A program made the position numbers and the translations under genes. Source: Limnobaculum allomyrinae (GTDB taxonomy: Bacteria; Pseudomonadota; Gammaproteobacteria; Enterobacterales; Enterobacteriaceae). From it: a stretch of 64,000 nucleotides of DNA. The stretch covers positions 682,001 through 746,000 of the forward strand of contig NZ_JADRCR010000001.1 of assembly GCF_016649425.1 (NCBI RefSeq). The letters are read 5' to 3'. Of this stretch, positions 48,034 through 52,329 are shown piece by piece (position 1 is the stretch's first letter; each line of letters opens with the position of its first letter). The notes under the pieces were generated by a model. The model did no database searches and was not told the DNA's origin. It saw only the letters and a list, made by a program, of their open reading frames with translations.

Positions 48034-49089
48034 TTACTTACCGCGACGAGCCTGAACCGCATAGGCCAGATTTTGCAGCAACAGTTCGGTGTCGTCCCAG
48101 CCGATACAGGCATCGGTAACGCTCTGACCATAGATTAGCGGTTCGCCGCTTTCCAGGCTCTGAGCCCCTTCCACCAGATGGCTTTCAACCATTACGCCGG
48201 TAATCGCATTATCACCACCGGCAACTTGCTGGCACACGCTCTCGCACACTTCCATTTGCTTTTTATACTGTTTGCTACTGTTAGCATGGCTGAAGTCGAT
48301 CATGACGTTCAGCGGCAGTTTGGCCTTATTCAGACTCTCTTTGACGTTTTTCACGTCTTCTGGGCTGTAATTTGGCGCTTTACCACCACGCAAAATGATA
48401 TGACAATCATGATTTCCACGGGTATTCACAATCGCGGAATGACCATATTTGGTTACTGACAGAAAACAGTGCGGCGCACCGGCAGCATTGATTGCGTCAA
48501 TCGCAACTTTAATCGTTCCGTCGGTTCCATTTTTAAAACCAACCGGACAGGATAAACCGGATGCCAGTTCACGGTGAACCTGGGATTCAGTAGTACGAGC
48601 ACCAATAGCACCCCAACTCATCAAATCCGCCAGATATTGTGGAGTAATCATATCCAGAAATTCGCCGGCGGTTGGCAAGCCACTGTCATTGATATCCAGC
48701 AATAGCTTACGTGCAATACGCAGACCATCATTAATCTGGTAGCTGTTATCCAGATTAGGATCGTTAATCAATCCTTTCCAACCCACTGTTGTACGCGGCT
48801 TTTCAAAGTAAACCCGCATAACAATTTCCAGATCTTTATCAAGGCGTTTACGTACTTCAGCCAGACGGCGAGAATACTCAAGGGCAGCATCAATATCATG
48901 AATAGAGCAAGGCCCAATTACCACCAGCAGGCGATCGTCTTCACCTGCCAGAATATTATGAATCGCTTCGCGGGAAGCCGCGACCGTTAAAGCAGCCTTC
49001 TCCGTAGCAGGGAACTTCTCCAGTAACGCAACCGGAGGTAACAGCTCATTAATCTCTTTTATTCTTATATCATCATTTTGGTAGTTCAT
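48034..49089 (-). CDS. aroG: Phe-sensitive 3-deoxy-7-phosphoheptulonate synthase AroG
   Basis: A 351-residue DAHP synthase, the first enzyme of the shikimate pathway. Motifs are VIGPCSIHD, RVYFEKPRTTVGWKGLINDP, GARTTESQVHRELASGLSCPVGFKNGTDG and VMIDFSHANSSKQ. AroG, AroF and AroH are close paralogues; the N-terminus (MNYQNDDIRIKEINELLPP) and the position next to gpmA identify AroG. I found no clear TyrR box upstream. Confidence 0.96.
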   Translation of the reverse strand: MNYQNDDIRIKEINELLPPVALLEKFPATEKAALTVAASREAIHNILAGEDDRLLVVIGPCSIHDIDAALEYSRRLAEVRKRLDKDLEIVMRVYFEKPRTTVGWKGLINDPNLDNSYQINDGLRIARKLLLDINDSGLPTAGEFLDMITPQYLADLMSWGAIGARTTESQVHRELASGLSCPVGFKNGTDGTIKVAIDAINAAGAPHCFLSVTKYGHSAIVNTRGNHDCHIILRGGKAPNYSPEDVKNVKESLNKAKLPLNVMIDFSHANSSKQYKKQMEVCESVCQQVAGGDNAITGVMVESHLVEGAQSLESGEPLIYGQSVTDACIGWDDTELLLQNLAYAVQARRGK

Positions 49090-49586: not shown

Positions 49587-49844
49587 ATGAATATTTCCCG
49601 TCAAGAACAACGTACACTTCACGTCCTCGCTAAAGGTGGACGTATCACTTATATTCGCGATATCTCTGGTCGTGTCACTTCCGTTGAATGTTATTCCCGG
49701 GAAGGATATTTACTTAGCGATTGCACCCTGGATATTTTCGGTAAGCTAAAACGTAAAAAACTGATCAAATCAGTTAACAGTCAACCTTATCGTATCACTA
49801 TGGCTGGGTTACGAGCGGTTCGCCCTCAGTTAGATAACCAATAG
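49587..49844 (+). CDS. topAI: YjhX/TopAI-family toxin (topoisomerase I inhibitor homologue)
   Basis: An 85-residue protein very like E. coli YjhX/TopAI, which binds and inhibits topoisomerase [21 protein letters not shown], then [20 protein letters not shown] and [19 protein letters not shown]. In E. coli the downstream yjhQ (GNAT protein) is the antitoxin. Here a terminator follows 25 bases after the stop and no yjhQ is present, so the gene is an orphan. The ribosome-binding site is weak (ACAGG, 10 bases away) and the leader is structured. Confidence 0.9.
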
Positions 49845-50134: not shown

Positions 50135-50506
50135 CCACGATTTTCAGACATAAAAAAAGCGCCTTAGGCGCTTGTTCAATAATGGTGGGTCGTGCAGGAT
50201 CACTCGGCCTGTGGCCTCGCCCTTCGGGCCGTTGCCGCTGGCAACGTTGTCTCACTGCGTTCGACTCGAACCCTGGGTTCTTCATCCCCACGATTTTCAG
50301 ACATAAAAAAAGCGCCTTAGGCGCTTATTCAATAATGGTGGGTCGTGCAGGATCACTCGGCCTTTGGCCTCGCCCTTCGGGCCGTTGCCGCTGGCAACGT
50401 TGTCTCACTGCGTTCGACTCGAACCCCGGGTTCTTCATCCCCACGATTTTCAGACATAAAAAAAGCGCCTTAGGCGCTTGTTCAATAATGGTGGGTCGTG
50501 CAGGAT
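50135..50506 (-). repeat. Tandem 153-bp repeat derived from a tRNA-Lys 3' end
   Basis: Units start at 50135, 50288 and 50441 with a period of exactly 153 bases. Each unit has a minus-strand terminator (AAGCGCC-tta-GGCGCTT) and an 18-base copy of the tRNA-Lys 3' end including CCA. In the first two, 65 bases of GC-rich hairpin DNA follow, and then TCGAACC and a spacer. The third unit runs instead into the intact tRNA gene at 50489. The first two units differ by only a few bases. Confidence 0.88.
50457..50479 (-). terminator. tRNA-Lys terminator
   Basis: A 7-bp stem with a TTA/TAA loop and a run of seven T on the minus strand, 10 bases after the tRNA CCA end. Confidence 0.85.
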
Positions 50507-50564
50507 TCGAACCTGCGACCAATTGATTAAAAGTCAACTGCTCTACCGACTGAGCTAACGACCC
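50489..50564 (-). tRNA. tRNA-Lys (UUU anticodon)
   Basis: 76 bases, with CCA encoded. It forms a standard cloverleaf with anticodon TTT in TTGACTTTTAATCAA and T-loop GGTTCGAATCC. It is nearly identical to E. coli lysT-type genes, which occupy the same place beside cpoB. Confidence 0.97.
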
Positions 50565-50620
50565 ATTATTGATATTCTGAAGTGATAACAACGAAATAAA
50601 TCAAGATGAAATGGCTTAGA

Positions 50621-50732
50621 TGGTGGTCGTGCAGGATTACTCGGCCTTTGGCCTTGCCCTTCGGGCCGTTGCCGCTGGCAACGTTATCTCACTGCGTTCG
50701 ACTCGAACCTTTGGTTCTTCATCCTCACGATT
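50621..50732 (-). repeat. Third, diverged copy of the tRNA-Lys-derived element between the two tRNA genes
   Basis: It carries the same tRNA 3'-end fragment (one G missing), the same hairpin block (GGCCTTTGGCC, GCCCTTCGGGC, CGTTGCCGCTGGCAACG) and TCGAACC. It lacks the terminator part and differs at about a dozen positions from the 153-bp units. It lies between the two tRNA-Lys genes, so it is part of their spacer RNA if they are co-transcribed. Confidence 0.8.
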
Positions 50733-50756
50733 ATCTATCGTGCTAAAGCTTAGTAA

Positions 50757-50832
50757 TGGTGGGTCGTGCAGGATTCGAACCTGCGACCAATTGATTAAAA
50801 GTCAACTGCTCTACCGACTGAGCTAACGACCC
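50757..50832 (-). tRNA. tRNA-Lys (UUU anticodon), second copy
   Basis: 76 bases, identical in sequence to the copy at 50489-50564, with CCA encoded. It is upstream on the minus strand, 192 bases from the other, so the two probably form one transcript separated by the tRNA-derived element. Confidence 0.97.
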
Positions 50833-51042: not shown

Positions 51043-51807
51043 TTACAGAGCGCTTAAACGTTTCTCTGCTTGTTTAGCGCTGGCGCTGTTCGCATACAGG
51101 GAGATAATACGCTGATACACCGCTTTAGCCTTATCCTTCTCACCTTTCTCCTGCATGATAATGCCTACTTTCAGCATTGATTCAGAAGCTTTAGGGGATT
51201 TAGGATAATTTTTTACTACCGTAGCAAAATAGTATGACGCATCATCTTTCTTGCCTTTGTTGTAATTCAGTTGTCCCAGCCAGTAATTAGCATTTGGCTG
51301 ATAGCTGGAGTTTGGGTACTGTTTTACAAAACTCTGAAAAGCAGTGATAGCATCATCATACTGTTTCTTTTCCAGAGCCAGGGTTACCGCATTATCGTAA
51401 TCCTGTTTTTCATTACCACTGCTTGCTGCGGCAGCACCGGTTGAGGTACTTGCTGCTGTGCCGGTGGTGGTAGCCGCGCTGGCAGATGATGTATTGGAAG
51501 TACTCGCGGCAGATGAAGCCCCTTTGCTGCCCAGTTCATCTATCTGCTGCAAAATAATCTTTTGTCGTTCGACAATTTGTTCTAACTGATACTGATTGGT
51601 TTGGATCTGACCACGCAGACTATCAATATCTCTCTGCGAATCGGACAATTGCTGCTGCAATTGAGTCAGCAATTGCCCATGTGCGTTAGATATACGCTCC
51701 AGCTGAGTGAGGCGCTCATCATCTGACGCAGCAATAGCAGCCCCAGGGGCTGCTATGCCAACCAGTAACGACAGACCTAATAAACGATATCTGAAATTAC
51801 GGTTCAT
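51043..51807 (-). CDS. cpoB: Cell division coordinator CpoB (YbgF)
   Basis: A 254-residue periplasmic protein. The signal peptide ends at AIAA (about residue 27). A coiled-coil trimerisation region covers about 30-95 (LTQLERISNAHGQLLTQLQ). A Ser/Thr/Ala-rich linker spans about 97-135. A C-terminal TPR domain (KQDYDNAVTLALEKKQYDDA; YQPNANYWLGQLNYNKGKKD) binds TolA. It couples Tol activity to PBP1B during septation. It is the last gene of the tol-pal operon and follows pal by 9 bases. Confidence 0.95.
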   Translation of the reverse strand: MNRNFRYRLLGLSLLVGIAAPGAAIAASDDERLTQLERISNAHGQLLTQLQQQLSDSQRDIDSLRGQIQTNQYQLEQIVERQKIILQQIDELGSKGASSAASTSNTSSASAATTTGTAASTSTGAAAASSGNEKQDYDNAVTLALEKKQYDDAITAFQSFVKQYPNSSYQPNANYWLGQLNYNKGKKDDASYYFATVVKNYPKSPKASESMLKVGIIMQEKGEKDKAKAVYQRIISLYANSASAKQAEKRLSAL

Positions 51808-51816
51808 GAGTTTCTC

Positions 51817-52329
51817 TTAGTAAACAAGTACTGCGCGACGGTTTTTAGCATAAGCAGCTTCGTCATGACCTAATACTGCAGGTTTCTCTTTACCATAAGA
51901 GACGATAGCCATTTGCTCACCAGATACGCCTTTACCCTGGAGATACATCTTCACCGCATTAGCACGACGTTCGCCCAGTGCGATGTTGTATTCCGGAGTA
52001 CCACGCTCATCCGCATGACCTTCGATAGTCACTTTGTAAGACGGGTTTGAACGCAGGAATGCTGCATGAGCATCCAGCATTTGAGCGAAATCAGAACGCA
52101 CATCGTAGCTGTCGTAATCGAAGTAAACGATGTTGTTGCTTTGCAGCTGTTGCAGAGTCAGACGCGCTTGCTCATCCAGAGATGAACTGTTGCCACCCAT
52201 ACCGTAACCGCCATTAGCACCCATACCTGACTGGCTACCATCAGTGTCAGAGCCACTGCTGCTACATGCAGCCAGAGCCATAACAGGTAACGCAAACATC
52301 AGCCCCTTCAGCACTTTATTCAGTTGCAT
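51817..52329 (-). CDS. pal: Peptidoglycan-associated outer-membrane lipoprotein Pal
   Basis: A 170-residue lipoprotein. The lipobox is ALAAC with lipidated Cys22. The OmpA-like peptidoglycan-binding domain covers about 60-170 ([42 protein letters not shown]). The start [15 protein letters not shown] has AAGGA upstream; the longer frame to 52362 is not in the family. It partners TolB. Confidence 0.97.

Follow-up and report, generated by a model that had tools for sequence, protein, structure and literature searches.

Within the window, a stretch of 64,000 nucleotides from Limnobaculum allomyrinae, two tRNA-Lys genes on the minus strand are accompanied by repeats that end like the tRNA itself, and the locus raises the question of what these repeats are and how they came by such ends. 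In transcript order, tRNA-Lys(UUU) 1 (50757..50832; ARAGORN, 79.2 bits with the Rfam tRNA model) is followed by repeat copy 1 (50621..50742), by the identical tRNA-Lys(UUU) 2 (50489..50564; ARAGORN, repeat family D3, 100%) and by an intrinsic terminator-like hairpin with a T-run (50463..50479). Copy 2 (50336..50458), a second terminator-like hairpin (50310..50326), copy 3 (50183..50305), a third such hairpin (50157..50173) and the initial bases of a truncated further unit complete the array, all on the minus strand. The terminator scan found four terminator-like sites in the region against 1.2 expected from shuffling, and none between the two tRNA-Lys genes, where copy 1 lies. Direct-repeat analysis recovered the two tandem 153-bp units (50135-50287 and 50288-50440; family D1, 98% identity) and the diverged third copy (50572-50724; 72% identity) that an earlier note on this DNA had described, and the tRNA terminators that it had seen in the tandem units are those at 50310-50326 and 50157-50173; the initial 66 nt of the unit are found again at 50441-50506, at the edge of tRNA-Lys 2. 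The tail TGGTGGGTCGTGCAGGAT (18 nt with CCA; 50336-50353 in copy 2 and 50183-50200 in copy 3) matches tRNA-Lys at 18 of 18 nt, as had been claimed for the repeats in general, and that of copy 1 (50621-50637) is 17 nt long with one base lost. All three units also contain the 65-nt GC-rich hairpin block that had been noted between GGAT and TCGAACC (50638-50702, 50354-50418 and 50201-50265 in copies 1, 2 and 3, respectively), which splits the tail from the T-loop bases GGTTCGA. A 114-aa open frame (50182-50526, plus strand) crosses the repeats on the opposite strand and is probably a by-product of them and no gene. Past the array lie a small hypothetical protein of the PRK13687 subfamily (49587-49844, plus strand) and AroG (48034-49089, minus strand), where E. 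coli has nadA instead. A CpoB/ybgF intercistronic RNA thermometer (Rfam, 103 bits; 51778-51915, minus strand) lies upstream of cpoB, and the closest CpoB matches found are from Pragia fontium (83%), an Enterobacteriaceae MAG (78%) and Budvicia aquatica (74%).

The Rfam model of RtT RNA, RF00391, covers all three copies over its full length (positions 1-130) with scores of 72.4, 76.3 and 74.5 bits for copies 1, 2 and 3 against a curated cutoff of 45 bits; the E values of about 1e-13 to 1e-14 are far past chance. The copies have the family's setting behind or between tRNA genes, here two for tRNA-Lys, and its 3′ end, a CCA-bearing copy of the adjacent tRNA 3′ end (one base short in copy 1). The homologous E. 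coli locus, cpoB-lys/val-nadA, carries the RefSeq annotation 'RtT sRNA', with two copies in OkiPb01713 and one in 504211. As the matches lie above the cutoff and the homologous locus carries this annotation, the elements are RtT, an already known family, and a new tRNA-Lys insertion is excluded. The picture of a repeat inserted into tRNA-Lys 3′ ends thus holds for the duplicated tRNA end and the block at the T-loop and fails for the rest, as the element has a name and is not specific to Lys. In K-12, no RtT is annotated within the stretch of the cpoB-nadA locus examined; the tRNA genes in this part number at least four for Lys and two for Val, in line with the larger number of such genes that had been noted for E. 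coli. RtT RNA reportedly goes back to Bosl and Kersten (1991) and the tyrT operon of E. coli. It was first described as an RNA released from the transcript of a tRNA operon, and two RNAs of the family gave Northern signals in Actinobacillus, where their reported position is upstream of tRNA genes (PMC4986893); the guess that the repeats give an RNA with a tRNA-like 3′ end is in line with both observations. A passage of the same paper also cites a stringent-response effect reported for E. coli rtT (PMC4986893).

The earlier note had allowed for a block absent elsewhere and hence for a merely local duplication. RtT is instead widespread: RF00391 is present in 16 of 40 relatives, and in a sample of 143 genomes from across the Gammaproteobacteria it has matches, mostly below the cutoff, in 27. 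The host tRNAs in the relatives are Tyr, Lys, Pro-cgg, Pro-tgg, Ser-gga, Arg-acg and Glu, to which the class-wide sample adds Gln-ttg, Gln-ctg, Ser-gct, Ser-cga and Ser-tga. RtT-like units of other gammaproteobacterial families (L150-L189) have several hairpins, variable in their stems and conserved at the junctions, and mostly score below the cutoff, and RF00391 may understate the extent of the family. The genome of the window itself has a diverged RtT behind tRNA-Tyr (L004; G000:C7:32487-32615), which scores 36.6 bits, below the cutoff, and has several changes in its tail. At the cpoB locus, Budvicia aquatica (L071) has two tRNA-Lys genes and three Lys tails, and across 80 named contigs the number of tail copies ranges from none to four, with the reservation that not all of the zeros are real because some of the contigs end near cpoB; every tail found is Lys, Lys-Val arrays included. 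Copy number differs both within E. coli and between genera, and a 175-bp variable repeat was reported for rtT RNA in a comparison of Salmonella Typhi with Paratyphi A (PMC2658671). The notion of a hotspot for tRNA array expansion and loss agrees with this variation in copy number; a causal role in tRNA gain or loss goes beyond what the variation shows.

What the window copies share with the rest of the family is most evident at the 3′ end. In the relatives, 66 of 88 RtT hits share their last 15 or more bases exactly with the upstream tRNA (a hand count from the hit table; 61 distinct units); in several of the non-matching hits the match ends a few bases off, or a Val tRNA was picked while a Lys tRNA lies inside the hit. 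In the class-wide sample, where most hits fall short of the cutoff, 18-19 nt of the local tRNA form the end of 37 of the 51 hits. The tail is cut at a constant point of the T-loop, before (A)ATCC; the search for tails used their last 17 nt, and the exact boundary comes from comparisons of tail and tRNA in the relatives and class-wide. The Rfam model takes no account of whether the tail matches the local tRNA, so such identity supports most of these class-wide hits as real RtTs. On these counts, most RtT copies across the Gammaproteobacteria finish in a perfect copy of the 3′ terminus of the nearest upstream tRNA. No statement of this rule was found in the open-access literature searched, which does not prove that there is none.

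The 5′ arm follows the tRNA as well, through an inverted match, and in this respect the description in the earlier note was incomplete. In many units 17-27 nt of the arm match the reverse complement of the local tRNA, from the 3′ strand of the acceptor through the T-arm, and the T-loop TCG often appears as GAG. The best match of the arm among the panel tRNA types is the local tRNA in 35 of 61 units, with ties in six, a count uncorrected for relatedness. Duplex energies of arm and tail did not discriminate (own tail best in 23/56), apparently through dominant GC-rich off-register pairing, and a count of pairs in fixed register was therefore adopted after that result; of the units, 45 had an arm that fitted the pattern and were usable, and 15 were skipped. 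In this register the arm forms pairs at 5.18 of seven positions when set against its own tail, compared with 3.48 of seven for the tails of other tRNA types, and the own-tail sum was reached by none of 5000 permutations (relatedness uncorrected). Gln, Tyr and Lys units give a strong signal and Ser units a weak one, and tracking fails in the Arg RtTs, where the arm is mostly missing. The arm has diverged in the genus of the window, with five of seven pairs; minimum-free-energy folds of the single sequences contain the arm-tail helix in copy 1, and a simple arm-tail helix is not the minimum in copies 2 and 3. From these comparisons we infer that arm and tail are predicted to form a minihelix like that of T-arm and acceptor, with the CCA as an overhang. 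What the analysis appears to add is thus a quantified rule, in which RtT ends track the host tRNA, most strongly in the tail and partially in the arm.

The cores record how RtT has spread. Of 25 sites in the Enterobacteriaceae, 17 have their nearest core in a different genome behind a tRNA of the same type (4.9 expected), and none has it in the same genome; since nearest cores mostly share the tRNA site and never the genome, these RtTs mostly descend in place. Class-wide, the nearest core is from the same genome in five cases (1.4 expected; P 0.024), for example at Ser-gct and Ser-gga in one genome (G172) and at Tyr, Ser and Gln in another (G053), and these few neighbours point to occasional copying between tRNAs.

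The best explanation overall, to which we give a probability of roughly 60%, is that the window holds three RtTs in a tRNA-Lys operon that form a tRNA-like minihelix, copy 1 being processed and copies 2 and 3 being repeated terminator modules. In each unit the 5′ arm would pair with the copied tRNA-Lys 3′ end and so mimic the T-arm/acceptor minihelix, leaving the CCA free, with the hairpin block standing in place of the T-loop. Copy 1 lies between the tRNA genes and would belong to the same primary transcript if both genes form one operon; its 3′ end would most likely be cut by the ordinary tRNA 3′-processing enzymes to give a small RNA with a tRNA-like end. Copies 2 and 3 would be tandem duplicates of the unit that holds the operon terminator. 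Of the 181 distinct spacers that precede an RtT, a simple scan places a terminator in 66, which makes the copies behind them, copies 2 and 3 of the window included, dependent on readthrough. These two copies may therefore be little transcribed, would be reached mainly via readthrough and may serve chiefly as repeated terminator modules. The observed variation suggests that unequal exchange or slippage, acting through the identical tails and spacers, shifts the tandem number. Comparison among genomes shows that in the long term RtT mostly keeps its tRNA site, with both ends tracking that tRNA.

A wider reading, which we put forward tentatively, takes RtT as a class-wide element customised to its tRNA, with both ends built from it (the 3′ tail copied directly, the arm as an inverted copy of T-arm and acceptor); this would call for a copying mechanism or for strong selection on the minihelix, and part of the function might be as folded single-stranded DNA, at which the C-GNA-G loops of the hairpins hint. 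That RtT is altogether an element of DNA, its hairpins acting as single-stranded or cruciform coding-strand DNA behind heavily transcribed tRNA genes (in topology, in replication or through a mobilising protein) and its RNA being incidental, seems to us unlikely. The many terminal RtTs behind intrinsic terminators would suit such an element, as would core stems that are mostly perfect (197/254). Sense-strand C-GNA-G loops, which we take to be unusually stable as DNA mini-hairpins, occur in 50 of 254 unique RtT hairpins versus two of 303 terminator-like hairpins, but this motif could serve in RNA. G-U and A-C mismatches stand at 15:9 in RtT versus 51:24 in terminators (unique hairpins; p = 0.63); the ratio not differing from that in terminators, the mismatches do not favour DNA, and selection on RNA and on DNA is not separated by them. 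A loose hairpin finder gave no G-U excess, and the RNase P and tmRNA controls are crude because that finder calls spurious stems. RtT RNAs have, however, been detected in cells (PMC4986893), and the reading as RNA is kept as the best, with that as DNA as its rival.

It is also improbable, in our estimation, that RtT is no more than a tRNA 3′ end duplicated locally with its spacer, a selfish or neutral repeat that is functionless as RNA and as DNA and retained only since tandem tails recombine. Tandem arrays, changes in copy number, presence and absence between close relatives and E. coli strains, and a terminator copied along with the unit are all what such duplication would leave behind, but the same multi-hairpin layout with variable stems and a fixed cut point recurs class-wide and the arm follows the tail, which together go beyond neutral duplication alone. 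Exact tRNA 3′-end repeats flank inserts at many tRNA integration sites, and 18-19 nt of exact repeat lie beside the RtT insert, but a footprint of site-specific integration (an att-like duplication by a recombinase) is highly improbable and is ruled out as the main explanation by an insert of just about 100-130 nt and by tails that vary with the host tRNA while the cores are alike and so share no constant att core, a combination that one att sequence cannot explain; nor was there an integrase among the few ORFs read next to the window array.

The window copies are ordinary RtTs at a locus that is already annotated with RtT in E. coli, and the wider rule is what matters. A constant cut point in the T-loop, a tail taken from the local tRNA and an arm matched to it provide a concrete way to study an RNA described as early as 1991. 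The matching of the ends predicts tRNA-type 3′ maturation of RtT, can be used to check distant RtTs whose scores fall below the Rfam cutoff, and makes one ask how a single element fits its ends to each tRNA anew. By their description, the rtT-like repeats within BIMEs, for which an attenuator role ahead of gatY, rbfA and cvpA has been proposed, are like RtT in their reported similarity to rtT, in their GC-rich hairpins and in a possible terminator role and unlike it in lying upstream of protein genes, with no tRNA tail described (PMC2965389). The window RtTs differ from the known RtT RNA in their host tRNA, which is Lys and not Tyr, in having two copies behind intrinsic terminators and in the diverged 5′ arm of this genus, and they share with it the full-length match to the model, the place behind a tRNA, the CCA-bearing tRNA 3′ tail, the tandem copies and the annotation at the corresponding E. 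coli locus.
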